This document shows positions 3,676-31,031 of a stretch of DNA of 37,334 nucleotides, in pieces. Source of the DNA: Lachnospiraceae bacterium (GTDB taxonomy: Bacteria; Bacillota; Clostridia; Lachnospirales; Lachnospiraceae); contig JALEWA010000111.1 in the NCBI GenBank assembly GCA_022788085.1, positions 1 to 37,334 on the forward strand, read 5' to 3'. The stretch's first letter is position 1, and each line of letters begins with the position of its first letter. The translations under genes and the position numbers were made by a program. Under the pieces are notes generated by a model, which was given only the letters and a program-made list of their open reading frames with translations, did no database searches and was not told the origin of the DNA.

Positions 3676-5163
3676 CTATTCCTGCGTCTTATTTGCTGCA
3701 CCATTTTCGCTCTCGCGAATGGAAACTGCAACACCTTCACGCAACTGCGCAGACCATGTAGTAATTACCGTATCATCCTTCGTAATTCCTTCTGTTATCA
3801 CAATATTCTCCACATCATATAGCCCTGTAGTAACATTAGTCTTTTTTGCCTTTCCATCTACTACCGTATACACATATGCCTGAGTTCCATCATAATAAAC
3901 AGCATCATATGGAATAATCAGCGCATTCTTTTCATGATAGGTATCTGTTGTAAGCTTTGCCTTAGTACCGGAAAGCATAGCTGAAGTATCTCCCTTTATG
4001 CCTGCTTTAATCTTAAAAAGACCTGTTGTTGTATCCAGTGCACTGCCGATTTCAATAATCTCACCTTCATATTGCGCTACATCCTTCTCAAGTGAAATCT
4101 TTTGTCCTATCGAAAAGGTATTACGTACATCCTCACTGACATAAAAGGTAGCAACCATGGAATCCTTATTGGATATTACAAAAGCCGGATTGCTTGATGT
4201 AGCAAAATCATGTTCCTTTATATTAACCGTTTCTATTACTCCTGAGATTGCTGCTGTGATTGTATACGCTTTTAGACTCTCCTTGGCTTGTTCGATACCC
4301 AACTCAGCTGCTGAAATACTGTTCTGTGATACCTGCTTCTGCTCTTCGCGAAGCTCTCCATTACTGATACTGGTAGTTGTCGCTGTCTGACTGTAAGACT
4401 CATAAGTACTGTCAATGCTATCCTGAAGATTCTCAATTGCTTCTTCACACTGATCAATTGCCTGCTTGTAGCCATCTACTTTAGCCTGCCATTGAGCATC
4501 CAGTGAAGCTGCCGTCTGATATCGGGTCATTGCCGCCTGGTACTCATTCATTCCCTCCAAAGTTCCCTTATCAATACTTTCGGCATAATCCTTGATTTCT
4601 TCCGGGTCTTCGCGATAATCATATTTCTTCCTGACATCTGCAAGTTCCTTCTGGGCATCCGCAAGCTGTCTCTTATACCGTTCCAGCGAATCCATCGCAT
4701 CCAGAAAACTTTCCTGTTGCGTAGCTACACCATCCTCAATCTTAGAAAGAGAACTGTCCGTCTGTATATCATTTATAATAGTAGCGCCATCTCCATAAGA
4801 AAGGTTATATGCTCTCTTTGCATTATCCAGACTTATCTGCGCTGATTTCATGGATATCTGTGCCATCGTATCATCCAGTACCGCTAGCACATCTCCCGCC
4901 TCCACGACATCTCCTGCCTTCACCTTGACTTCCATAACCTCTGCAGTTGTCTTTGGTATGACATAGATAGAGTCGTCAGGATTAATCGTAGCTATAAATT
5001 CACCACTTAACTTCAAATCTCCAACCGTTGGATTCGCAGCTTCCACAATAGCCACATCCTCCGTAATCTCTTCTGTTTCCTTTGTCTGTCCACAGCCACC
5101 AAGCACTGACATGGATAATACTGTGCATAATAGCAGCGCTATTTTTTTCTGTCTGTTCTTCAT
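3676..5163 (-). CDS. HlyD/AcrA-type efflux adaptor lipoprotein
   Basis: A 495-residue membrane-fusion protein. Residues 1-24 are a lipoprotein signal peptide ending in the lipobox LGGC (Cys24), so it should be anchored to the outer face of the cytoplasmic membrane. A split lipoyl/barrel-sandwich domain (about 60-100 and 300-325) flanks a long, charged coiled-coil hairpin (about 101-298), followed by beta-barrel and membrane-proximal domains (KISLEKDVAQYEGEI, then LIIPYDAVYYDG). The hairpin is long for a monoderm, which has no outer-membrane channel to dock to. AAGGAAGG precedes the ATG. The partner is the adjacent RND pump. Confidence 0.9.
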   Translation of the reverse strand: MKNRQKKIALLLCTVLSMSVLGGCGQTKETEEITEDVAIVEAANPTVGDLKLSGEFIATINPDDSIYVIPKTTAEVMEVKVKAGDVVEAGDVLAVLDDTMAQISMKSAQISLDNAKRAYNLSYGDGATIINDIQTDSSLSKIEDGVATQQESFLDAMDSLERYKRQLADAQKELADVRKKYDYREDPEEIKDYAESIDKGTLEGMNEYQAAMTRYQTAASLDAQWQAKVDGYKQAIDQCEEAIENLQDSIDSTYESYSQTATTTSISNGELREEQKQVSQNSISAAELGIEQAKESLKAYTITAAISGVIETVNIKEHDFATSSNPAFVISNKDSMVATFYVSEDVRNTFSIGQKISLEKDVAQYEGEIIEIGSALDTTTGLFKIKAGIKGDTSAMLSGTKAKLTTDTYHEKNALIIPYDAVYYDGTQAYVYTVVDGKAKKTNVTTGLYDVENIVITEGITKDDTVITTWSAQLREGVAVSIRESENGAANKTQE

Positions 5164-11901: not shown

Positions 11902-11935
11902 CATGAAAATAAAACGCATTTTATGGAGGTTCTCT

Positions 11936-13762
11936 ATGCACAACGAATTTTTAATGGGCAATGAGGCAATTGCCCTAGGTGCCATCGCTGCCGGTGTTAA
12001 TCTGGTATCCGGTTATCCCGGTACTCCTTCTACTGAGGTTCTCGAAACCTTTGCCAAAAAACGTGGAGACGGACAATATGTAGAATGGTCCGTTAATGAA
12101 AAGGTTGCCCTTGAGGTTGCTGCCGGTGCTGCCTACTCCGGTGCCCGAACCATGGTAACCATGAAGCAGGTAGGATTAAATGTTGCATCCGATCCGCTCA
12201 TGAGTCTTGCCTATATTGGAATCAAAGGAGGAATGGTCATCCTTGTAGCGGACGATCCGGGACCCGTATCTTCGCAGACAGAGCAGGATACCAGACACTT
12301 CAGTGCCTTTTCCAAGCTCCCATGTTTCGATCCTTCCTCTGCCCAGGAAGCATATGAAATGGTGCAGGATGCCTTTGCCTATTCCGAAAAATATGGCACA
12401 CCTGTCTTCTTAAGACCGACAACCCGTGTATGCCATGGCTATGCCTCCATCACTGTTAAGGATTCTGAAGAATATGAATTACATACACCGGAAGGATTTA
12501 TCAAGGATTCCAATCGATGGGTTATCTTTCCACGCCTCTCCTATCAAAACCATATAAAAATTGAAGCCCGCAATGAAGAACTGGCTCTTGACTTCTCTAA
12601 TTATGAAAAGAATAAAATTCTTCCGGCTTCTGACGAATATAAGAATTGCAGAAAAGGTATCGCTTCCGGCGGCATCAGCTTTACCTATGCCATGGAAGCT
12701 GCAAAGCAGCTCGGTGAACTTCGTCATCTCAAGGTATCTACACCGCATCCCTTCCCTGAGCAGCTTGCTTTACGCTTCTTAGAAGGTCTTGATGAGGTTC
12801 TGTGTCTGGAAGAGCTGGACCCGGTTATTGAACGCGAGCTTACTTATATTTGTGGAAAACATCATCTTCCGGTAAAAATTATTGGAAAGCTTACCCATGA
12901 TGTTAAAAATGCCGGTGAAAATACAAGAGACAGTGTTTTGCAAAATATTGCCGCATTCTTAGGAAAAGGACTTCCAAAGGCAGCTTCTCCGGAAACACCT
13001 CCTGCCCTTCCTGTACGTCCGCCCGTACTATGCGCCGGGTGTCCGCACCGTGCCTCTTTCTATGCTGTAAAAAAGGCAATGAAGGGTAAGAAGACTATTT
13101 TTTGTGGTGATATCGGCTGCTATACACTAGGAAATGCCATGCCACTTGATATGGTAGATACTTGTCTGTGTATGGGTGCCGGTCTTGGTATTGCACAGGG
13201 AGTTGGCAAGATTGAGCCTGATACGACCTGCTTTGCCTTCGTCGGTGACTCGACCTTTTTCGCTTCTGCAATTACAGGAGTTGTAAATGCAGTTTATAAT
13301 CAGGCTGATATGACTCTCATTATACTGGATAACTCAACAACTGCCATGACAGGTCATCAGCCTCATCCGGGAACCGGTCAGACTATGATGGGGGATATCG
13401 TAGCTAAGATTGATATGGAAGCTGTACTTCGAGGTATCGGACTCACTGTTGTAGAAACCGTTAATCCTCTGGAACATGAAACCGCCGTTTCCTGTGTGCA
13501 GCGTATTGCTTCCCAGCCGGGTGTCAAAGCGATTATCTTTAAGTCGCCTTGCATAGCCATTGTCAAGCCGGAAAAGAGTATGCAGGTAGACCAAAACATC
13601 TGTATCGGCTGTAATAAATGTATCAACGAAATTGGCTGTCCTGCTCTGATTAGGGAAAATGGCAAAGTTACCATTGATGCTTCCTTATGTACCGGATGTA
13701 CACTTTGCAGCCAGCTTTGTCCTATGAAAGCGATTCAAAAGGGAGGTAACATGCATGAATAA
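11936..13762 (+). CDS. iorA: Indolepyruvate:ferredoxin oxidoreductase, alpha subunit (cassette 1)
   Basis: A 608-residue large subunit of IOR, which oxidatively decarboxylates aryl pyruvates to arylacetyl-CoA and reduces ferredoxin. In order: the pyrimidine-binding domain (VSGYPGTPSTEVLE, NEKVALEVAAGAA), a middle domain, the CAGCPHRASFYAVK motif, the TPP-binding region (GDIGCYTLG, then GDSTFFASAITG and ILDNSTTAMTGHQ), and a C-terminal pair of 4Fe-4S motifs (CIGCNKC...GCP and CTGCTLCSQLCP). The start at 11936 is chosen because GGAGG lies at the right distance; an in-frame ATG at 11903 has no such site. Its stop overlaps iorB by 8 bases. It is only moderately similar to the second iorA at 27622-29361. 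Confidence 0.93.
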   Translation: MHNEFLMGNEAIALGAIAAGVNLVSGYPGTPSTEVLETFAKKRGDGQYVEWSVNEKVALEVAAGAAYSGARTMVTMKQVGLNVASDPLMSLAYIGIKGGMVILVADDPGPVSSQTEQDTRHFSAFSKLPCFDPSSAQEAYEMVQDAFAYSEKYGTPVFLRPTTRVCHGYASITVKDSEEYELHTPEGFIKDSNRWVIFPRLSYQNHIKIEARNEELALDFSNYEKNKILPASDEYKNCRKGIASGGISFTYAMEAAKQLGELRHLKVSTPHPFPEQLALRFLEGLDEVLCLEELDPVIERELTYICGKHHLPVKIIGKLTHDVKNAGENTRDSVLQNIAAFLGKGLPKAASPETPPALPVRPPVLCAGCPHRASFYAVKKAMKGKKTIFCGDIGCYTLGNAMPLDMVDTCLCMGAGLGIAQGVGKIEPDTTCFAFVGDSTFFASAITGVVNAVYNQADMTLIILDNSTTAMTGHQPHPGTGQTMMGDIVAKIDMEAVLRGIGLTVVETVNPLEHETAVSCVQRIASQPGVKAIIFKSPCIAIVKPEKSMQVDQNICIGCNKCINEIGCPALIRENGKVTIDASLCTGCTLCSQLCPMKAIQKGGNMHE

Positions 13763-14339
13763 AAATATTGTCTTATGTGGTGTTGGCGGTCAGGGAACCG
13801 TCCTTGCCTCCAAGCTGATTGCTGCAGCAGCCATGGCAAAAAATATTCCTGTTATGAGCGCTGAAACAATTGGAATGGCACAAAGAGGAGGAAGCGTATT
13901 CAGTCATCTTCGTATGGGTGAAAATCTCTACTCTCCCATGATTGCTGAGCATACTGCCGATCTTATCCTTGGATTTGAACCCGGTGAAACAGTCCGTATG
14001 CTTCCCTATTTGAAGGAGGACGGTCAGGTCGTTGTCAGTTCCCGTGCCATTATGCCGGTTACAGCTACCCTTTCCGGAGCTTCTTACTGTGGTGAAGACA
14101 TGTTGACTTACTTAAGAAAGAATATTAAGAATCTTCTAATTGTCGATACCGAAAAAGCATGTATGGAAATTGGCTCCCCTAAGGTCATGAATATCCTCCT
14201 GCTTGGTGCTGCTGTGGAAAGTGGTGCACTTGGTTTAGATGAAGAGGATCTTAAAAATGCGATTCGTTCAAAGCTCCCCGAAAGGTTCCATGAGCTGAAT
14301 TTTACAGCACTTTCCTATGTAAAGAACCATATGAATTAA
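13755..14339 (+). CDS. iorB: Indolepyruvate:ferredoxin oxidoreductase, beta subunit (cassette 1)
   Basis: A 194-residue gamma/beta-type subunit of the 2-oxoacid:ferredoxin oxidoreductase family. It carries the N-terminal GVGGQGTVLASKLIA motif and AETIGMAQRGGSVFSHLRMG, both diagnostic of IorB. It forms the active enzyme with IorA. Translation is probably coupled: the ATG overlaps the end of iorA (ATGAATAA), with GGGAGG upstream inside iorA. Full length for the family, with no defects visible. Confidence 0.93.
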   Translation: MNKNIVLCGVGGQGTVLASKLIAAAAMAKNIPVMSAETIGMAQRGGSVFSHLRMGENLYSPMIAEHTADLILGFEPGETVRMLPYLKEDGQVVVSSRAIMPVTATLSGASYCGEDMLTYLRKNIKNLLIVDTEKACMEIGSPKVMNILLLGAAVESGALGLDEEDLKNAIRSKLPERFHELNFTALSYVKNHMN

Positions 14340-14378
14340 CCCTTTATAGCTAAAGCAACATGAAAGAAGGTATAAACT

Positions 14379-15614
14379 ATGCAGATTTCAGAAAAACAGA
14401 TTCAACAAGTAAACAACCAGATACAACGCTTAGTTGCTGCCGGAAGCTTCTATGGGAAAAAGCTTGCCGAGGCAGGAATCAGCGGCGTAAGCTCCTGCGA
14501 AGACTTTACAAAGCTTCCTTTCTCCGAAAAGAATGACCTGCGTGAAGCTTATCCGCTTGGATTGATGACTGCTCCTGAAGAGGATATCGTAAGAATCCAC
14601 TCTTCCTCCGGCACAACCGGTCTTCCGGTCATTATCCCTTATACAGCTAAGGATGTTGATGACTGGGCAATTATGTTCAAGCGTTGCTATGAAATGGCCG
14701 GCATTACAAAGCTCGATCGTATTCAGGTAACTCCCGGATATGGATTATGGACAGCAGGTATTGGCTTTCAGAATGGTGCTGAGAAGCTTGGTTCTATGGT
14801 AATCCCTATGGGACCCGGTAATACCGATAAACAGCTACAGATGATGATGGATATGAAATCTACCGTTCTTTGTTCCACCTCTTCTTATGCGCTTCTGCTT
14901 GCGGAAGAAATTGAAAAAAGAGGTATTAAAGATAAGATTCATCTGAAAAAAGGTGTCATCGGTTCCGAACGCTGGGGTGAAAAGATGCGTAAGCGTATTT
15001 CTGAAGAACTTGGCATTGAGCTATATGATATCTATGGCTTAACGGAAATCTACGGTCCCGGTATCGGTATCAGTTGTAAATATGACTGCGGTATGCATTA
15101 TTGGGATGATTATATCTATATTGAAATTATCGACCCTGTTACATTGAAGCCGGTTCCTGATGGTGAAATGGGTGAAATCGTAATTACTACCCTTGTGAAA
15201 GAAGGTGCGCCATTGATTCGTTATCGTACCCATGACCTGTCCCGTATCATTCCGGGTGTCTGTGAATGTGGCAGCCCATATCCTCGTCTTGATGTCATTA
15301 TGGGTAGAACAGATGATATGATGAAGATTAAGGGTGTTAATGTATTTCCAAGCCAGATTGAAGAAGTTCTTCGTGAATTCCCTGAAGTTTCCAGTGAATA
15401 CCAGATTCGTATCTCACATCTTGATGGCAAGGATACCATGCGTATCTATGTGGAGACAAATGGAACCGTTGACTTTGCTGACTTAAGCCGGCGCATTGCA
15501 GAAAAGGTAAAGAGCCGCATTGGCTTCACACCACTTGTTAAGGTTGTCGAGCTTGGTGTCCTGCCAAGAAGTGAGAAGAAATCAAAACGTGTCATTGATG
15601 AGCGTTATGAATAA
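14379..15614 (+). CDS. paaK: PaaK-type arylacetate-CoA ligase (cassette 1)
   Basis: A 411-residue AMP-forming ligase of the phenylacetate-CoA ligase family. Motifs are HSSSGTTGLPV (phosphate loop), DIYGLTEIYGPG (adenine motif), LIRYRTHDLSRI (ribose Asp), the Cys motif CECGSPYPR, GRTDDMMKIKGVNVFPSQIEE (hinge), and a C-terminal catalytic Lys in SEKKSKRVIDER. It interconverts an arylacetate and its CoA ester, complementing the IOR encoded just upstream. Compared with the paralogue at 25674-26981 it lacks about 20 N-terminal residues; AAGAAGG before the ATG supports this shorter start. Last gene of the cassette, followed by a strong terminator. Confidence 0.9.
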   Translation: MQISEKQIQQVNNQIQRLVAAGSFYGKKLAEAGISGVSSCEDFTKLPFSEKNDLREAYPLGLMTAPEEDIVRIHSSSGTTGLPVIIPYTAKDVDDWAIMFKRCYEMAGITKLDRIQVTPGYGLWTAGIGFQNGAEKLGSMVIPMGPGNTDKQLQMMMDMKSTVLCSTSSYALLLAEEIEKRGIKDKIHLKKGVIGSERWGEKMRKRISEELGIELYDIYGLTEIYGPGIGISCKYDCGMHYWDDYIYIEIIDPVTLKPVPDGEMGEIVITTLVKEGAPLIRYRTHDLSRIIPGVCECGSPYPRLDVIMGRTDDMMKIKGVNVFPSQIEEVLREFPEVSSEYQIRISHLDGKDTMRIYVETNGTVDFADLSRRIAEKVKSRIGFTPLVKVVELGVLPRSEKKSKRVIDERYE

Positions 15615-15635: not shown

Positions 15636-15700
15636 ACAGATTCATAATATAGTCCTAAGAAGTAACATATAGACTATATTGTGAATCTGTTTTATTTTAT
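15636..15700 (+). terminator. Terminator of IOR cassette 1
   Basis: A 19-base stem (15636-15654 with 15672-15690, only one G-U pair) is followed by TTTATTTTAT. It separates the IOR cassette from the leuA-like gene. Confidence 0.85.
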
Positions 15701-15719
15701 CCGTAATCTTCGAATATTA

Positions 15720-15794
15720 AATATCATCAATAAAATAGATTAAATATAATCATTCTATTATTCATCTTTCTGTAGTAAAATAATATCATCAATA
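15720..15794 (+). promoter_or_regulatory. Exact direct repeat and candidate promoter upstream of the LeuA-AraC gene
   Basis: AATATCATCAATA occurs at 15720-15732 and again at 15782-15794, 62 bases apart start to start (close to six helical turns). The second copy runs into the palindrome TCAATATTGA. A weak promoter, TTCTAT (15753-15758), 17 bases, TAAAAT (15776-15781), lies between the copies. AraC-family proteins commonly bind direct repeats, and the gene that follows encodes such a domain, so autoregulation is a natural inference. Confidence 0.5.
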
Positions 15795-15831
15795 TTGATA
15801 TATTTTAATATACGTAAAAAGAGGGATGATT

Positions 15832-17820
15832 ATGAAAAATGTGAAAAAATATCAACGTCAATACTTTCTGCCCCCGGTTGACAGCTTCGACTGGGTAAAA
15901 AAGGATTATATAGAAAAGGCTCCTATCTGGTGCTCTGTTGACCTAAGAGATGGCAATCAGGCTCTGATTGAGCCAATGGGCTTGGAAGAAAAGATAGAAT
16001 TCTTTCAATTGTTAGTAAACATCGGTTTTAAAGAAATCGAGGTCGGCTTTCCTGCCGCTTCTGAAACAGAGTTTGATTTTATTCGTGCTTTAATAGAACG
16101 GAATATGATTCCTGATGATGTTACCATTCAGGTATTAACACAGGCAAGAGAACATATTATCCGCAAAACCTTTGAAGCACTGAAAGGTGCTCCACGCGCT
16201 GTCGTTCATTTATACAACTCCACTTCAGTAGCACAAAGGGAACAGGTCTTCAAAAAAGATAAGGAACAGATCAAGAAACTTGCTGTAGATGGTGCTGCCC
16301 TGTTAAAATCACTTGCTGATGAAACAGACGGTAACTTCTCTTTTGAATACAGCCCTGAAAGTTTTCACGGAACAGAGGTTGACTATGCATTAGAAGTCTG
16401 CAATGCTGTACTTGATGTATGGCAGCCTGATTCTGAGCATAAGGCTATCATTAATATTCCGGCTACGGTAGAAACAGCAATGCCGCATGTATTTGCTTCG
16501 CAAATCGAATACATCAGTAAAAACCTGAAATACCGTGACCATGTTGTTCTTAGCATCCACCCACATAATGACCGTGGCTGTGGGGTCAGTGATACGGAAC
16601 TTGGCATTCTTGCAGGAGCCGACCGCGTGGAAGGAACCTTATTTGGAAATGGTGAGCGTACCGGTAATGTCGATATCATCACTGTTGCCATGAACCTCTT
16701 CTCCTACGGTATCGAACCCGAGCTTAATTTTACAGATATGCCTGCCATCCGTGAAACCTATGAACGCCTGACGAAAATGCATGTCTACGAAAGACAGCCT
16801 TATGCCGGTGACTTAGTATTTACTGCCTTTTCCGGTTCTCATCAGGATGCGATTGCAAAAGGTATGGCATGGCGTGATGAAAAGAAGGAAGAATATTGGA
16901 CAGTTCCCTATCTTCCAATCGATCCTATGGACGTTGGAAGAACGTATGATGCTGATGTGATCCGCATCAACAGCCAGTCTGGTAAGGGTGGGATTTCTTA
17001 TATCCTGAAGCAGAATTTCTCAATTTCAATACCTGAAAAGATGCGTGAAGAGGTCGGTTATGCCGTAAAACAGGTATCCGATGAGGAACATAAGGAACTT
17101 TCTCCACAGTGGGTATATGAAATCTTCACGGAAAACTACGTAAATTACACACCAAACTTTACCATTACCGAATGTCATTTCCGTCAGGAAAATGGTATTA
17201 TGGCTGAGGCTACGATTTCCTGTGGTGAGAAAAAGACCATCGTAGATGCAAACGGAAACGGTCGCCTTGATGCGGTAAGCAATATTATCAAGCAATACTT
17301 TGAAATCAGCTATGAGTTATCCGTTTATGAAGAACATGCACTCTCCAAAGGTTCTTCTTCCAAAGCAATGGCATTTGTTGGTATTCTTTGCAATGGCAAA
17401 AGCTATTGGGGGGCTGGCATTGACGAAGATATCATCAAGGCTTCCATTCATGCACTTGTAGTAGCTGTCAATAAGCTTCCTCAGGTACAGAATGATGAAA
17501 ATGTAAAAGATGACCGTCTGATTACGATGCTCAACTACATTCAGACAAATTATCAGACCGTTACCTTAGAAGATATGGCAAATGAGTTCCATCTCTCCAC
17601 ACCATATATCTCTAAATACATCAAGGACAAGTCCGGTAAGACCTTTGGCGAGCATGTAACTCAGATTCGTTTAAAACGTGCAAAGACCTTACTGAAAAAT
17701 GGTAACATGACCGTAGAGAATATCTCCTATGCTATTGGCTATCCCAATGCTGAGCATTTTATCCGAGTCTTTAAGAAGACCTTTAACATGACACCGATTC
17801 AATACAGGAACATGAATTGA
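15832..17820 (+). CDS. leuA: 2-isopropylmalate synthase fused to a C-terminal AraC-type HTH domain
   Basis: A 662-residue fusion. The first part is a complete yeast-type (LeuA2) 2-isopropylmalate synthase, which condenses acetyl-CoA with 2-oxoisovalerate in leucine synthesis. It shows [10 protein letters not shown] (about 37-46), the metal ligands HPHND (243-247), [10 protein letters not shown] (272-281), the [13 protein letters not shown] region, and a C-terminal allosteric leucine domain (about 425-550). Residues 560-662 are a double helix-turn-helix AraC domain: [20 protein letters not shown], then [19 protein letters not shown] and [10 protein letters not shown]. The reading frame is uninterrupted across the seam (17509). 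The start at 15832 is chosen because GAGGG abuts the earlier ATG at 15826. I infer leucine-responsive DNA binding; that is not shown by the sequence. Confidence 0.92.
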
Positions 17821-18420: not shown

Positions 18421-18570
18421 TTAATATACTTTCTCAGAATTCAATAATGCATCTGTTCCGCCATCAACAAACATGATGTTCCCATTAATACCCATTGCCT
18501 TTCTGGATACCAGAAATACCATGACCTCTGCAATCTCTACAGGATCCATTAATGTTTCCAAACGAGAACT
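18421..18570 (-). pseudogene. Short-chain dehydrogenase/reductase, C-terminal fragment
   Basis: Reading minus from about 18570 to the TAA at 18423-18421 gives the last 45-50 residues of an [21 protein letters not shown], then [12 protein letters not shown], then a short tail ending NSEKVY. This is the usual SDR C-terminus (PEEIA helix and VDGG). No start codon or upstream Rossmann domain remains; upstream the frame quickly reads into the antisense of the MocR-type gene and reaches a stop near 18620. It is a remnant left by a deletion. Confidence 0.82.
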
Positions 18571-19858
18571 GGCAAAGCACCATAAAATCAGCTTGAAAAC
18601 AGTAGAAAATACTTATGAGCAGCTCTTAACAGAAGGTTATATTTATTCTGAAGAAAAGCGAGGTTATTTTGTTATGCCCTTAGGAAATGACTCCGGTAAC
18701 CGGACTTCTGTTTCTGAGAATCATATGCCTTTCAGTATTTATCAAGGCAATCTGGAAAGCCACGAATATTTTGTTGATTTTACTTCTAATCAGGCAGCTA
18801 TTAAGAAATTCCCCTTTGGGACGTGGGCAAAAATCATGCGTAATGTTCTTTCTGAAAAAGAATCCCTACTTCTAAAAACGGTTCCCTTCCGGGAAATATA
18901 CGAGCTTAGAGAAGCCATCGCCAAATATCTTTATGGTTTTCGCGGAATACAAGTCTCTCCTGATCAGATCATCATCGGTGCCGGAACTGAATATCTCTAT
19001 GGCTGGTTGATTCAATTACTTGGCCGAGAACATATTTATGCAGTAGAAGATCCCGGATACCAGAAAATCACAAAGATCTATCAGGCAAATGATATTTCAT
19101 GGGAATATGTTGATGTAGACGAAAACGGCATGCAGATTGATAAGCTCTATGAAAGCGCTGCAAGCATTGTCCACGTATCTCCAGGTCACCACTTTCCGAC
19201 GGGAAGCATTATGCCAATTGCAAGACGAAGGAAACTAATTGAATGGGCAGAGGAGGCTTATGAGCGATATATTATCGAGGATGATTATGACAGCGAATTC
19301 CGATTCAGCCATATGCCGATTCCTTCACTTCAAAGCATTAACCATAACCATAGAGTCATATATTTGAATACTTTTTCCAAAACACTTGCTCCCTCCATCC
19401 GAATCAGCTATATGGTTCTTCCAAGAAAGCTGATGGAGCGCTATATCAATACCATGAACTTCTACTCCTGTACTGTTTCTGCTTTTGAGCAATATGCTAT
19501 GGCAGAGTTCATGAATAAGGGATATTTCGAACGACATATTCACAGAATGAAGAAATATTATAAAGAAAAAAGAGACCGTCTGCTAAAAGTCTTAGAAAGC
19601 TCTGCTCTAAAAGATTATGTAACAATTGATGAAAAGGATGCCGGAAATCATTTTTTGATGAAGCTTCATACAAGTTTAAGTGATACAGAACTAAAATGGT
19701 ATGCCAGAGAGAGCGGCATACGGCTTGATTGTCTTTCAGAATATTGTGTGAGAGATAAGGAATCCTTCTCCCACACAATCATTGTAAACTATTCTGACCT
19801 TGAAGAAGCCAGTTTTTCCAAAGCATTACAGCTTCTGTCAGAGGTTATTATTACGTAA
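18557..19858 (+). pseudogene. MocR/PdxR-type GntR regulator with aminotransferase domain, 5'-truncated
   Basis: From about 18557 the frame encodes [20 protein letters not shown], the second half of a GntR winged helix, and then a full class I aminotransferase-like domain with the PLP Lys in NTFSKTLAPS and the upstream YIIEDDYDSEFRF motif. This is the MocR architecture. Normal members have about 35 more residues ahead of LPSKREL, including the start and first helix; these are missing. The open frame does extend back to an ATG at 18473, but those residues are antisense of the dehydrogenase tail and no ribosome binding site precedes the ATG. I therefore call it a truncated gene, although a chimeric protein cannot be excluded. 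Confidence 0.8.
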
Positions 19859-25673: not shown

Positions 25674-26981
25674 CTATCCATATAATTTACGCTTATCGAT
25701 GACTCTGACTGCCTTACCTTCACTTCTTGTGATGGATTTCGGCTCTACCAGATGAACCTTTGCCTGTATACCAAGCATAGCCTTAAGGGAAGCAACAAGC
25801 TGCTTTTCTTTCTCTGAAATCTTTCCAAGACTATCAGAGAACATCTCCTGAGACATTTCTACATTAATATCAAAGGTATCTGTATTGTTCACACGGTCAA
25901 CGATAATCTGATAATTTGGTGTCATACCTTCATTCAACAATACTGTTTCAATCTGTGACGGGAATACATTAACACCACGGATAATCAGCATATCATCACT
26001 TCTGCCTAATGGCTTTGTCATCTTAATATGTGTTCTTCCGCAAGAGCATTTCTTTCTGGAAAGAATACATAAATCCTTGGTACGGTAACGAAGTAATGGG
26101 AAAGCTTCCTTGGTAATACTGGTAAATACTAATTCACCCTTTTCTCCCTCCGGAAGCACCTCTCCTGTTTCCGGATTGATGATTTCTGCAATAAAATGGT
26201 CTTCGTTGATGTGCATTCCTGACTGCTCCTCACATTCAAATGCAACACCGGGACCACTTGTCTCAGTCAGGCCGTAAATATCATATGCCTTGATTCCCAG
26301 CTTGTTCTCAATATCATGACGCATCTCTTCTGTCCATGCTTCCGCACCAAAGATACCAGCCTTCAGCTTTATCTGATCCCTTACGCCTCTTTCTTCGATA
26401 GACTCACCAAGATAAGCCGCATAAGAAGGTGTACAGCAAAGGATAGTAGATTCCAAGTCTACCATGAACTGTATCTGTCTCTCTGTATTACCGGAAGACA
26501 TAGGAATCGTAAGAGATCCTACTTTGTGAGAACCGCCATTTAAACCCGCTCCTCCTGTGAAAAGGCCATAACCATAGGCTACCTGCACAACATCTTCATC
26601 TGTTCCCCCTGCTGCTGTAATCGCACGGGCACAGCAATCCTCCCATAAATCAATATCATGTTGTGTATAAAAAGCTACGACTCTTCTTCCTGTTGTTCCA
26701 CTTGTAGACTGAATACGAACACAATCCTTTAAAGGCTTTGCAAGAAGTCCGTATGGATATGCCTCCCTCAGATCATCCTTTGTCAAAAAAGGAAGCTTAT
26801 GTAGATCTTCAATTCCCTTAATATCGTCCGGTGTAACACCCTTCTCTTCCATCTTTTTGCGATAATAAGGAACATTCTCCCATACATGCTTTACCTGTTT
26901 TACCAGACGCTCACTTTGGAGTGCCTTAAGCTGTTCTACCGGCATTGTTTCAATCTCCGGCTGATAATACCTTTTTGCCAT
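25674..26981 (-). CDS. paaK: PaaK-type arylacetate-CoA ligase (cassette 2)
   Basis: A 435-residue, full-length phenylacetate-CoA ligase family enzyme. Motifs are QSTSGTTGRRV (phosphate loop), the GYGLFTGGAGLN substrate region, DIYGLTETSGPG (adenine motif), LLRYRTKDLCIL, the Cys cluster KKCSCGRTH, GRSDDMLIIRGVNVFPSQIE (hinge), and a C-terminal Lys in SEGKAVRVIDKR. It activates arylacetates or works in reverse on the arylacetyl-CoA made by the IOR encoded just upstream. The start has AAGGTAAGG upstream. Residues 1-20 are present here but absent from the cassette 1 paralogue. Confidence 0.92.
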   Translation of the reverse strand: MAKRYYQPEIETMPVEQLKALQSERLVKQVKHVWENVPYYRKKMEEKGVTPDDIKGIEDLHKLPFLTKDDLREAYPYGLLAKPLKDCVRIQSTSGTTGRRVVAFYTQHDIDLWEDCCARAITAAGGTDEDVVQVAYGYGLFTGGAGLNGGSHKVGSLTIPMSSGNTERQIQFMVDLESTILCCTPSYAAYLGESIEERGVRDQIKLKAGIFGAEAWTEEMRHDIENKLGIKAYDIYGLTETSGPGVAFECEEQSGMHINEDHFIAEIINPETGEVLPEGEKGELVFTSITKEAFPLLRYRTKDLCILSRKKCSCGRTHIKMTKPLGRSDDMLIIRGVNVFPSQIETVLLNEGMTPNYQIIVDRVNNTDTFDINVEMSQEMFSDSLGKISEKEKQLVASLKAMLGIQAKVHLVEPKSITRSEGKAVRVIDKRKLYG

Positions 26982-27059
26982 TTTGTAACCCTTACCTTTC
27001 TCCCTTTTCTATATTACCACAGAGCATAATCACTTATGCCCTGCATAACAAACCATACT

Positions 27060-27629
27060 TTAGGCATTACGCCCCAATGCAAATGCCTTTTTATTCAATT
27101 CCAGGAACTTTGGAGGTACACATGCTTCCAGCGCTTCCATCCATGCTTCCTGTGTTGCATCAAAATATTTTGATAACCGTCCCATCAATACCAGATTTAC
27201 AGCCTTGCTGGATCCTGCCTGCATTGCCAAATCCAATGCGTCAATCGCATCAACATCTGCCCCTGCTGCCTGCATCTTCTCCACAAGGTTCTCAGGATAC
27301 TGCGCTGCACCAATAATGACTGGCATTGGATCAATTTCCTGTGTGGACATGATAATTTTTCCGCCCTTTTTCAGATATGGCACCCATCTGGCTGCCTCTA
27401 GCTTTTCAAAGGAAATGATGAAATCTGCAGTACCCTTGTCAATGATTGGCGAATACACCTTTTCACCATATCTTACGTAAGTAACGACACTTCCACCTCT
27501 CTGACTCATTCCATGTACCTCAGAAACCTTTACATCATACCCCTGTGAAAGTAAAAGCTTTCCTAACATCTTACTTGCCAGCAGAGAGCCCTGTCCGCCG
27601 ACACCAACAATCATAATATTCTTAGTCAT
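27060..27629 (-). CDS. iorB: Indolepyruvate:ferredoxin oxidoreductase, beta subunit (cassette 2)
   Basis: A 189-residue IorB with GVGGQGSLLASKMLGKL and EVHGMSQRGGSVVTYVRYG, the same two family motifs as in cassette 1. The start at 27629 is chosen because GGAGGG lies 8 bases upstream and because the homology begins there; the frame extends back to 27680 inside iorA. The ATG overlaps the iorA stop as ATGACTAA, an 8-base overlap identical in geometry to cassette 1, indicating coupled translation and a fixed subunit ratio. Confidence 0.92.
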   Translation of the reverse strand: MTKNIMIVGVGGQGSLLASKMLGKLLLSQGYDVKVSEVHGMSQRGGSVVTYVRYGEKVYSPIIDKGTADFIISFEKLEAARWVPYLKKGGKIIMSTQEIDPMPVIIGAAQYPENLVEKMQAAGADVDAIDALDLAMQAGSSKAVNLVLMGRLSKYFDATQEAWMEALEACVPPKFLELNKKAFALGRNA

Positions 27630-29361
27630 TCTCATTGCCCTCCAATGCTCCAAATGCACATAACTGCTGACATACGCCACAGCCTACACAAAGAGTAGAA
27701 TCAATGGTTGCCTTCTTATCCTTCATACTGATTGCAGGACAACCAAGCTTCATACATTTTGTACAACCCTTACACTTTTCAGGATTGCATTTAATTGCAG
27801 GCTTTGCCTTTACTGTCTTTAAAAGTGCACATGGACGTCTGCTGATAATGATAGATGGCTCATTTACTGCCAGTTCTTCCTTAACCGCCTGATCAGTTTC
27901 TTCCAGGTTATATGGATCTACGACACGAACACGGTTAATGCCCATAGCTCTGCAAAGAGCCTCTAAATCTATTTTTCCGGCTGGATCTCCCTTAATATTG
28001 TAACCGGTAGTCGGATTCTGCTGATGACCTGTCATTCCTGTAATAGAATTATCTAAAATAATAACTGTCGAATTACTCTGGTTATATGCAATATTGGCAA
28101 GACCTGTCATACCGGAATGCATAAAAGTAGAATCACCAATTACAGCAACCGTCTTATTCTCACTCTCTGCACCAAGTGCTTTGTTAAATCCATGAATGGA
28201 GCTTACAGAAGCACCCATGCAGGCTGTTACTTCCATTGCACTAAGTGGGGCAACAGCACCCAGCGTATAGCATCCAATATCACCTAATACCGTACATTTA
28301 TTCTTAGATAATGTATAGAATAAACCACGATGAGGACAACCTGCACACATAACAGGAGGGCGAACCGGTATTGTTTCATCCAATGTGATTCCTTCCGGTA
28401 CTTCCTTTCCTAAAATTCCCGCAATCTGATTCTGTGAGAACTCATCCTCTAACGGCAATAAATCCTTGCCATTTACTTCGATTCCAATACTGTTACAATA
28501 TTCTTCAATAAATGGATCAAGCTCTTCTATTACGATAAGCTTTTCTACCCTGGATGCAAATTCCTGAATCATCTTCTTTGGAAGCGGCCATACCATACCA
28601 AGCTTTAAGATGCTTGCTTCCTCGCCATAAACTTCTTTTGCATACTGATAGCAGGTAGAAGATGTAATAATACCAAGCTTTGTTCCACCCATCTCGATTC
28701 TATTAAGTGGTGAGTTTTCCGCATACTCTGCCAGATCCCTTAATCTCTGTTCAACAACAGGATGCTTTTTCTTCGCATTACCGGGCATCATGACATTCTT
28801 TGCAATGTTCTTCTCATACGGTTTTACCGGTAACTCCACACGTTCAGAGGTCTCTACCACACTCTGGGAATGTGCAATCCTTGTACATGTCTTAATAAAT
28901 ACCGGTGTATCAAATTTCTCTGAGATTTCATAAGCAATCTTTGTATATTCCAGACATTCTGCAGAATCTGCCGGCTCCAGCATAGGAAGCTTTGCAGCTT
29001 TTGCATAATGACGTGAATCCTGTTCATTCTGGGAAGAATGCATACCCGGATCATCTGCTACTACGATCACCATTCCGGCATTAACCCCTATGTAGGAAAT
29101 GGTAAACAGAGGATCTGCTGCCACATTGAGTCCTACATGCTTCATACCACAAAAGCTTCTCTTGCCTGCAAGACTTGCGCCGAATGCAACCTCCATGGCA
29201 ACCTTTTCATTTGGTGCCCATTCACAGTACACCTCATCATATTTTGCTATCTCCTCCGTAACCTCAGTACTTGGTGTTCCGGGATAGCTGGAAACGACAC
29301 CACAACCAGCCTCATAAAGTCCTCTTGCGATTGCGGTGTTACCCAACATTAACTGTTTCAT
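27622..29361 (-). CDS. iorA: Indolepyruvate:ferredoxin oxidoreductase, alpha subunit (cassette 2)
   Basis: A 579-residue IorA. The order is as in cassette 1: VSSYPGTPSTEVTE, NEKVAMEVAFGAS, CAGCPHRGLFYTL, GDIGCYTLGAVAPL, GDSTFMHSGMTG and ILDNSITGMTGHQ for thiamine diphosphate, then two 4Fe-4S motifs (CKGCTKCMKLGCP and CVGCGVCQQLC). It is about 30 residues shorter than the cassette 1 protein and clearly diverged, so the two are old paralogues rather than a recent copy. AGGAAAGG precedes the ATG. The preceding AIM24-family gene ends only 17 bases upstream, so iorA is probably transcribed from the AIM24 promoter. Confidence 0.93.
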   Translation of the reverse strand: MKQLMLGNTAIARGLYEAGCGVVSSYPGTPSTEVTEEIAKYDEVYCEWAPNEKVAMEVAFGASLAGKRSFCGMKHVGLNVAADPLFTISYIGVNAGMVIVVADDPGMHSSQNEQDSRHYAKAAKLPMLEPADSAECLEYTKIAYEISEKFDTPVFIKTCTRIAHSQSVVETSERVELPVKPYEKNIAKNVMMPGNAKKKHPVVEQRLRDLAEYAENSPLNRIEMGGTKLGIITSSTCYQYAKEVYGEEASILKLGMVWPLPKKMIQEFASRVEKLIVIEELDPFIEEYCNSIGIEVNGKDLLPLEDEFSQNQIAGILGKEVPEGITLDETIPVRPPVMCAGCPHRGLFYTLSKNKCTVLGDIGCYTLGAVAPLSAMEVTACMGASVSSIHGFNKALGAESENKTVAVIGDSTFMHSGMTGLANIAYNQSNSTVIILDNSITGMTGHQQNPTTGYNIKGDPAGKIDLEALCRAMGINRVRVVDPYNLEETDQAVKEELAVNEPSIIISRRPCALLKTVKAKPAIKCNPEKCKGCTKCMKLGCPAISMKDKKATIDSTLCVGCGVCQQLCAFGALEGNEND

Positions 29362-29378: not shown

Positions 29379-30263
29379 TTAGTTAAAGATATCCAATACA
29401 TCAGAAATTACATCAAATGCCTTTCCTGCCTTTTCAAGTGTTCCCTGATTCGTCTTACTCTGGCTCTGACCTGTTGAACTGCTGGAAGCAGCCGGATTAA
29501 TATTATAATCTGCAGCAGTTGGTGCAAGCAGAATCTTACCACTTCCACGGTATACATTGACAAGTCCTTCTCCGGATACTGCAGAGCCAAGCAGGCTTTT
29601 TCCTGACTTCTCAACGGTAAAATCCAAAGAACCTGACCATGCAACTGCCATATTGCCATCAATCTTCATGACATCGTTATCCAATACGACCTCAATCAAT
29701 TCTTCATAAGGGACATAGCACTCTAAAGCTGCAATTCCCTTTCCTGATAAGGAGAGATTAAACAATCCCTCACCACCTAAGACAGCTGAGGAAAGATTTG
29801 ATCTTGCCACAACTTTTTGCTGTAAAGAACTTTCACACGCAAGAAACAGTCCGTCGTCAAGTACAACCGTTCCCCACTCAGCTACATCAATCAGAACGAT
29901 ATAGCGATATGTAGGCTCCAACATCATTCTTCCTGTCCCCTGATAAATCGGTTTTACTGCACTTTCCTTCGTAACTGCGGAGCTTACCATCTTTCCAAGG
30001 AAATCACCAACACCCTTCACATTAGATGCCATATTCACATTTCCACTCATCCACTGCATAGCTCCTGCCTGAACAATATAGCTGCTATTACTCAAATCAA
30101 GCATAAGCTGTCTCTTTCTGACATTCATTTTAGATGCAAAGTAATGGTTTACGGCAGAGCTCGACGAAATACTAAGATCCTTTTCATGCTCTAGTACATG
30201 GAAATTGCCCATAGAAGCTATTTCCTTTAAATTCTTATTACTAAATATGCTGCTATCTACCAT
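29379..30263 (-). CDS. AIM24-family protein, second of a tandem pair
   Basis: A 294-residue protein of the AIM24 (PF01987) family, whose beta-rich fold is seen in bacteria, archaea and mitochondria and whose molecular role is not settled. Visible features are QAGAMQWMSGNVNM, GRMMLEPTYRYIVLIDVAEWG, VLDDGLFLACESS, GGEGLFNLSLSGKG and the glycine-rich SGEGLVNVYRGSGKILLAPT. A C-terminal Ser/Thr/Gln-rich tail (about 258-294) is absent from its upstream neighbour. The two proteins are very similar over residues 1-250, a tandem duplication. It is 12 bases from its neighbour and 17 bases from iorA, so all are in one operon. Confidence 0.88.
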   Translation of the reverse strand: MVDSSIFSNKNLKEIASMGNFHVLEHEKDLSISSSSAVNHYFASKMNVRKRQLMLDLSNSSYIVQAGAMQWMSGNVNMASNVKGVGDFLGKMVSSAVTKESAVKPIYQGTGRMMLEPTYRYIVLIDVAEWGTVVLDDGLFLACESSLQQKVVARSNLSSAVLGGEGLFNLSLSGKGIAALECYVPYEELIEVVLDNDVMKIDGNMAVAWSGSLDFTVEKSGKSLLGSAVSGEGLVNVYRGSGKILLAPTAADYNINPAASSSSTGQSQSKTNQGTLEKAGKAFDVISDVLDIFN

Positions 30264-30275
30264 TCTCTCTTCCCC

Positions 30276-31031
30276 CTATGCTGTTGGAGCCATCAGGATC
30301 TTACCGGTTCCACGATATACATTGACAAGTCCTTCTCCTGATACCGCAGAGCCAAGAAGACTCTTTCCTGATTTTTCAACTGTAAAGTTTAGTGAGCCTG
30401 ACCACGCAATTGCCATATTGCCATCAATCTTCACAACATCATCCTCAAGGTTAAAAACAATTAATTCTTCTTTTGGTACAGGGCTTTCCAATGCAGCAAT
30501 ACCCTTTCCAATTAAGGACAAATTGAACAATCCTTCACCACCCATAACTGCAGAGGAAAGATTTGTTCTAGCAACTGTTTTCTGCTGAAGAGTATCTTCA
30601 CAGGCAAGAAACAGTCCATCGTCAAGTACGATACTTCCCCATTCTGAAACATCCACCAATAATATATGTCTATAGGTAGGCTCAAGCATCATAACACCAT
30701 TTCCTCTATATATAGGCTTGACAGCTGTTTCTTTTGTTACCGCTGCACTTGCCATCTTTCCAAGGAAATTACCAACACCCTTAACACCTGTTTCCATATT
30801 CACATTACCAAGCATCCACTGCATAGCTCCTGCCTGTGTAATGCAGCCGCTTCCACCAAGCTCGACAAAAACCTGACGTTTTCTGACATTCATCTCAGAT
30901 GAAAAATATGCAGTAACAGCGTTTGCAGGATTTACACTTAAATCCTTTTCGTGCTCGAACACACGGAATGGCCCCATCTGCTCAATTACCTTCATATTAT
31001 TATTGTTTAAAAAATTATTAATTTGAAACAT
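30276..31031 (-). CDS. AIM24-family protein, first of a tandem pair
   Basis: A 251-residue AIM24 (PF01987) protein with the same block order as its paralogue: VFEHEKDLSVN, QAGAMQWMLGNVNM, GVMMLEPTYRHILLVDVSEWG, VLDDGLFLACEDT, GGEGLFNLSLIGKG and SGEGLVNVYRGTGKILMAPT, ending there without the low-complexity tail. No signal peptide or membrane helix is evident. It is the first gene of the operon AIM24-AIM24-iorA-iorB-paaK-ACT and has a recognisable promoter. A link between this family and aromatic pyruvate oxidation is not something I know to be described. RBS GAGGG. Confidence 0.88.
   Translation of the reverse strand: MFQINNFLNNNNMKVIEQMGPFRVFEHEKDLSVNPANAVTAYFSSEMNVRKRQVFVELGGSGCITQAGAMQWMLGNVNMETGVKGVGNFLGKMASAAVTKETAVKPIYRGNGVMMLEPTYRHILLVDVSEWGSIVLDDGLFLACEDTLQQKTVARTNLSSAVMGGEGLFNLSLIGKGIAALESPVPKEELIVFNLEDDVVKIDGNMAIAWSGSLNFTVEKSGKSLLGSAVSGEGLVNVYRGTGKILMAPTA

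Follow-up and report, generated by a model that had tools for sequence, protein, structure and literature searches.

The fused gene and its protein domains

The window, that is, the whole stretch of 37,334 nucleotides analyzed here (Lachnospiraceae bacterium, GenBank assembly GCA_022788085.1, contig JALEWA010000111.1), contains a single open frame at 15832-17820 on the plus strand, whose translation gives 662 residues with no interruption. The gene, its predicted ribosome-binding site, and the parts of the encoded protein are located as follows.

15832..17820, plus strand: LeuA-AraC fusion gene, 662 codons plus stop
15820..15825, plus strand: predicted ribosome-binding site AGAGGG, read from the sequence
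15922..16755, plus strand: catalytic HMGL-like domain, residues 31-308 (Pfam PF00682, 2e-70)
16810..17010, plus strand: IPMS_D2 domain, residues 327-393 (Pfam PF22615, 1.9e-34)
17098..17478, plus strand: LeuA_dimer allosteric/dimerization domain, residues 423-549 (Pfam PF08502, 4.7e-22)
17479..17511, plus strand: variable linker, about residues 550-560, with the lowest conservation in 110 fused proteins
17512..17817, plus strand: AraC-type DNA-binding domain with both helix-turn-helix (HTH) units, residues 561-662 (PF12833, PF00165)

A second in-frame ATG at 15826 is an alternative start, but we prefer 15832 because the spacing from AGAGGG fits it better. The preliminary description of this DNA had claimed that a complete 2-isopropylmalate synthase and a double-HTH AraC domain share one frame, and comparison with Pfam and NCBIfam confirmed this composition. 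All four Pfam matches exceed their cut-offs, and the NCBIfam model of 2-isopropylmalate synthase (NF002991) covers residues 4-548 (1.1e-242, 806.7 bits against a cut-off of 455). The catalytic motifs are intact, as had also been claimed, and are invariant or almost so in 33 aligned proteins. Both HTH units of the AraC part are complete: the Pfam HTH_18 match (residues 582-660, 1.4e-20) covers model positions 1-79 of 80, and an AlphaFold model made with 33 sequences has seven helices at residues 561-661 (pLDDT of 79-89 in this block and 70 for the last two residues). The AlphaFold monomer overall had a mean pLDDT of 77.6 and a pTM of 0.52; it is too poor around residues 320-384 for the placement of the domains to be discussed.

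The best sequence and fold match to the enzyme part is LeuA of M. tuberculosis (1SR9; leucine bound, 3FIG), which is of the same long type (NF002991) and has the same catalytic, IPMS_D2, and LeuA_dimer domains as residues 4-549 of the fusion. A fold search with the whole chain ranked this enzyme first, with leucine-bound 3FIG among the matches. The solved M. tuberculosis chain stops after LeuA_dimer, whereas the fusion continues into the AraC domain. In the alignment, GNG 475-477 and Y499/A503 of the fusion (YxEHA motif included) correspond to residues 531-533, 554, and 558 of M. tuberculosis LeuA, which are part of the leucine site. Because these motifs are conserved, it is plausible that the fusion reports the leucine level, as the preliminary description had suggested, with leucine as the signal that would control its DNA binding.

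Closely downstream of the fusion gene lies a MocR/PdxR-like regulator (18473-19858, plus strand). Two oppositely oriented clusters in the window (11903-15614, plus strand; 25674-29361, minus strand) contain genes for indolepyruvate ferredoxin oxidoreductase (alpha and beta) and a phenylacetate-CoA-ligase-like protein, and two adjoining similar frames of 294 and 251 amino acids (29379-31031, minus strand) look like a tandem duplication. We rejected gene neighborhood as a guide to function: it is variable around the 87 loci with enough flanking sequence, where the commonest neighbor is a D-Ala-D-Ala carboxypeptidase (14/87) and scpA and scpB lie near 12-13 of the loci.

Distribution, history, and selection

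The fusion is not confined to this genome, a possibility raised in the preliminary description. Full-length fusions were found in 31 of 38 genomes of the genus and, in an even draw of the family, in at least 95 of 396 genomes (among the matches listed). Within the genus, G025 has the fusion in two contig pieces, three genomes have only an unfused type at 52% identity, and three have no match at 1e-100. Many relatives in the family draw, at 66-72% identity, end near residue 550. A class sample contained the fusion in 14 of 393 genomes (11 of the 14 from the same family), and a phylum sample queried with the C-terminal 116 residues gave a fusion-length frame in 4 of 398 (among the matches listed). 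No relative of the C-terminal part was found in viral contigs. We also considered other C-terminal fusions hinted at by long open frames at six loci and rejected them at four of the six, which were extended only N-terminally; the verdict covers these four and leaves aside L258 and L260.

Can two separate genes have been joined by assembly or sequencing? Most fusion sequences do come from metagenome assemblies. However, many separate assemblies contain fusions built in the same way, at identities of 66-92%, and named isolates are among them (carriers include Lachnobacterium bovis DSM 14045, Agathobacter ruminis JK623, Mediterraneibacter massiliensis, and Claveliimonas monacensis). This excludes both an error of sequencing and a peculiarity of a single genome. 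The same junction occurs at 111 distinct loci, isolates included, and we regard an artifact as already refuted, its probability being practically nil.

Our collection of 142 distinct enzyme parts comprised 111 that are fused, 26 without the HTH part, and 5 with the HTH part directly behind in another frame. In a FastTree phylogeny, the HTH-bearing rows fell into one clade of 129 rows (support of 97), within which 13 unfused rows were nested. In a quick IQ-TREE analysis of 77 rows, seven changes were required, three of which are forced by well-supported branches. One gain of the HTH part followed by several losses would be the simplest reading of these trees, in which many deep branches are weak.

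The losses in several lineages might indicate that the AraC part is a functionless passenger, left by an accidental fusion and now decaying. Against this, dN/dS of the HTH part was 0 to 0.07, enzyme-like, in the 12 of 17 close pairs for which it could be computed (several dS values of these pairs exceed 1 and are rough), and a candidate operator, described below, is tied to the AraC domain. The mean frequency of the commonest residue in 110 fused proteins was 0.85 for residues 1-414, 0.75 for 415-549, 0.47 for 550-565, and 0.74 for 566-662, and HTH positions of the DNA-contact type are conserved among the fused proteins. Judged by these substitution patterns, the HTH part is under purifying selection, and a decaying passenger is extremely improbable.

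Is the fusion also the enzyme of its host? Exactly one LeuA_dimer gene, either the fusion or a split form, was present in 29 of 30 genomes (28 fused and 2 frame-split), a count that rests on the LeuA_dimer domain and covers only forms of the enzyme that have it. The fusion was the sole such gene in 27 of the 28 fused genomes, the exception being the source genome, which has two. A leuB gene above the cut-off was found in all 30 genomes, including all 28 fused ones, and a leuC-like gene was found in 33 of 35 genomes (above the curated cut-off in 20; not found in G013 and G014). Since it is the sole LeuA_dimer gene in 27 of 28 genomes and leuB is present in all 28, LeuA-AraC should also be a working 2-isopropylmalate synthase. 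The second LeuA of the source genome is unfused and 52% identical (contig C225; locus L172, 4998-6674). It adjoins glmM-, rmlD-, and gmd-like genes rather than leucine genes, and a T-box was not found at this locus. The leuC and leuB-ilvD genes of the source genome are on contigs other than that of the fusion.

In four of the frame-split forms, a run of A residues lies at the junction of enzyme and HTH part, with the HTH part in the -1 frame; the run is A9 in L066, L067, and L075 and A8 in L122 (genome G100). Their positions, each in its own locus, are as follows.

L066, 51-2029: frame-split locus
L067, 5717-7695: frame-split locus
L075, 8001-9979: frame-split locus
L122, about 4960-5010, minus strand: frame-split junction

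In the same stretch of the 111 fused loci, the longest A run is 6, at one locus. L066 and L075 have diverged to a dS of 0.68 in the enzyme and 0.80 in the HTH frame, yet they share an unaltered A9 run and a conserved HTH frame (dN of 0.065). L114 (G087), which is also split, has no long run. Three assemblies show the A9 form, which makes an assembly error unlikely there; such an error may lie behind the split forms of single genomes. The A8/A9 runs that split enzyme and regulator suggest slippage, perhaps programmed, and the split forms would fit transcriptional slippage, ribosomal frameshifting, or a separately translated small regulator. L067 also has a stop codon inside the enzyme frame (an assembly error or a broken copy), which is not present in its near relative L066.

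A candidate operator upstream of leuA

The conserved candidate operator upstream of the fusion gene is new in this analysis. It consists of two direct half-sites TAAAnnnnATCA at a spacing of 23 nt, followed at a fixed distance by a -10 box. An upstream alignment of 16 fused loci revealed a conserved block in which half-sites TAAAnnnnnTCA are exactly 23 nt apart in 14 of the 16. The corresponding elements in the window are listed here.

15718..15729, plus strand: distal half-site TAAATATCATCA of the candidate operator (upstream alignment)
15741..15752, plus strand: proximal half-site TAAATATAATCA, 23 nt downstream of the distal one (upstream alignment)
15776..15781, plus strand: predicted -10 box TAAAAT at the conserved offset, without TGn in front (layout alignment)
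15776..15807, no strand assigned: inverted half-site pair (TAAAATAATATCA ... TTGATATATTTTA) over and downstream of the -10 box, kept in close relatives

We scanned 1 kb upstream of leuA with a 47-nt matrix built from 13 half-site pairs of 13 loci, leaving out 2 of the 142 rows (L026 and L066) whose upstream DNA was short. Scores above the threshold of 12 were obtained at 88 of 110 fused loci, many of which are close relatives of one another (75 of 97 outside the training set), at 4 of 4 scannable frame-split loci, and at 0 of 26 unfused loci; the best of 5,000 random 1-kb pieces from the same loci reached 11.8. Several of the 22 fused loci below the threshold show a single half-site. No operator was found at the 13 unfused loci that fall within the fused clade. 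The 77-row tree provided three independent contrasts on supported branches, too few for significance alone, and the operator followed the HTH part in 2.6 of them on average and never in the opposite direction.

Genome-wide occurrences pointed the same way. The 35-nt pair pattern, allowing no mismatch, matched 14 times in 20 fused genomes, and the reversed pattern matched 4 times; 12 of the 14 matches are upstream of leuA, one (G050) ends 172 nt before a leuB match, and one is elsewhere, on contig C42 of the source genome. A 27-nt pattern, allowing up to one mismatch, was scanned over 74 fusion-bearing genomes (72 fused and 2 frame-split) and gave 70 matches in 63 of them, compared with 4 for its reversed form. 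Leucine genes lie downstream of 65 of the 70 matches: leuA for 60 in 59 genomes (mostly within 900 nt; about 1.3 kb in G018), leuB for one (G322), and leuCD for four, all of one genus (G209, G421, G719, and G616; for the last two the assignment rests on 91-94% identity to that genus's leuC). The same scan gave no leuCD match in two more genomes of that genus, G775 and G748. The other five matches are elsewhere (G180, G001, G013, G142, and G286). In 74 same-family genomes without the fusion among the matches listed, we found one match to the pattern and three to its reverse. Comparison with the reversed pattern and with these genomes without a listed fusion indicates that matches away from leucine genes are at background, whereas those at leucine genes go with the fusion.

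With the matrix, scores above 12 were found in 1 of 20 stretches upstream of leuB (G322) and in 1 of 30 upstream of leuC-like genes (G209); 20 of these 30 loci pass the curated leuC cut-off, and at L207 and L218 the stretch scanned is offset from the true start. A common leu regulon across the fused genomes is not supported, as operators at leuC or leuB were found only in particular genera. In the source genome the matrix scan (threshold of 12) found no operator before leuC or leuB. Because the operator was found only at leuA there, LeuA-AraC is most likely an autoregulator in this genome.

Could another regulator occupy the operator, with the HTH part of LeuA serving a different role, such as oligomerization? 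The source genome encodes many further AraC-type proteins, and binding of the operator by LeuA-AraC is a prediction. A separate regulator, however, would need to have been gained and lost in step with the fusion: the site is absent from 73 of the 74 same-family genomes without a listed fusion and from the 13 nested unfused loci noted above. The conserved contact-type positions of the HTH part also argue against this alternative, which we consider quite unlikely.

Many unfused relatives control leuA by a T-box leader (Rfam RF00230), an RNA attenuator of the same gene, in contrast to the protein operator of the fusion. A T-box was found upstream of leuA at 12 of 18 unfused same-family loci and at 9 of 41 distinct fused loci (two-sided Fisher test, P = 0.0024, uncorrected for kinship). 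All nine of these fused loci have the T-box between the operator and leuA; the matrix identified eight of the operators, and the ninth (G018, L018) was identified by the 27-nt pattern only. A plain replacement of the T-box by the fusion is only partly true, since 9 of 41 fused loci keep a T-box plus the operator. No T-box was found at the leuA gene of the window, where, as in L001, there was no Rfam match at all, or in 20 leuB regions. At two unfused loci (L131, 6742-6905; L115, 2458-2616), leuA is separated from the T-box by the Rfam Clostridiales-1 RNA, which is perhaps part of a leucine leader.

The layout of the promoter was compared at 80 of 92 above-threshold loci, those with a forward operator and enough sequence. 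A -10-like hexamer occurs at a single fixed offset in 73 of the 80 (background, 3.0%) and is preceded by TGn in 66 of those 73 (background, 0.2%). The proximal half-site ends at the -35 position, and the -35 hexamer itself is poor; a plain promoter scan of 15700-15830 gave no match on the plus strand. The -10 box of leuB in G050 is at the same offset as at the leuA loci (G050 alone is counted by the strict test). By reading, TATATT or TAAAAT stands one nucleotide further at the leuCD sites and at leuB of G322, and no -10 box stands at the equivalent place in operator-like sites away from leucine genes. AraC-type class II activators have a layout like that of the fused leuA promoters, and AraC itself uses direct half-sites about two helical turns apart beside the -35 region, as at fused leuA. 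By this analogy, the promoter layout fits an AraC-type activator.

The opposite sign of regulation was also considered. As an autorepressor, LeuA-AraC would bind more when the enzyme is abundant or leucine is high and would shut the promoter through the inverted sites at 15776-15807. Additional inverted half-sites that overlap and follow the -10 box do occur in the close relatives of the window, but in the 80-locus alignment the positions behind the -10 box are unconserved and the direct pair upstream is conserved, which is the activator layout. We therefore regard autorepression as unlikely; the extra inverted pair in the window and its close relatives may add repression to activation.

A proposed trigger enzyme for leucine synthesis

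These data establish that the enzyme-regulator fusion is real and conserved, and a predicted operator accompanies it. The preliminary description had proposed that the protein may be both catalyst and regulator, and comparison of genomes supports this proposal well: the fusion is nearly always the sole LeuA_dimer gene of its host, the candidate operator is tied to it, and in two genera this operator also precedes leuCD or leuB. With its own DNA-binding domain and a matching site before leuA, and sometimes before other leucine genes, one protein in many gut bacteria appears to act both in leucine synthesis and in the control of the genes behind it. From the sequence evidence, LeuA-AraC very likely binds DNA and likely activates transcription, and it is probably a new trigger enzyme that activates the promoter of its own gene as well as, in some genera, leuCD or leuB.

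How would such a protein work? In the mechanism we propose, a biosynthetic 2-isopropylmalate synthase would have gained an AraC DNA-binding domain behind its allosteric domain. The LeuA dimer would set two AraC domains onto the two half-sites, and the proximal domain would reach the -35 region and recruit RNA polymerase (class II activation), switching on leuA and, in some genera, leuCD or leuB. More tentatively, the sensor may be the leucine-binding domain beside the DNA-binding domain, in which case leucine would both inhibit the enzyme and switch the activator off; substrate or product might be the signal in place of leucine. AraC has a sugar-binding dimerization domain. The fusion shares with the AraC/XylS transcription factors their complete double-HTH domain, and in place of that sugar-binding part it has a whole dimeric enzyme with an allosteric domain of its own.

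Trigger enzymes are metabolic enzymes that affect expression of their own pathway, as we propose for LeuA-AraC; E. coli proline dehydrogenase and aconitase are DNA- or RNA-binding examples named in PMC3178575. Yeast Leu3 (PMC7351879) couples leucine synthesis to transcription of leucine genes via 2-isopropylmalate, the product of the same enzyme as in the fusion. Leu3 has no enzyme activity and is a zinc-type regulator encoded apart from the enzyme, whereas the fusion would unite both functions. Our search of open-access full text found no trigger enzyme with an AraC domain or built from 2-isopropylmalate synthase and no printed account of a LeuA-AraC fusion.

A broader reading, which we offer only tentatively, is that in Lachnospiraceae one domain fusion may have turned the first enzyme of leucine synthesis into the leucine-responsive activator of the pathway, adding to and often replacing the T-box, with slippage at the A8/A9 runs possibly setting, in some lineages, the amounts of enzyme produced with the regulator and without it. 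Thanks to the operator, the natural losses of the domain, and the frame-split forms, the link between catalysis and gene control can be tested directly, and assays have an exact target in the 12-nt half-site and its 23-nt spacing. The fusion is also a case in which one can trace how a protein switch came to a gene that is under T-box RNA control in many relatives. If our reading is true, the allosteric domain of one polypeptide would serve both feedback inhibition and the transcription of amino acid synthesis genes in a major gut family.
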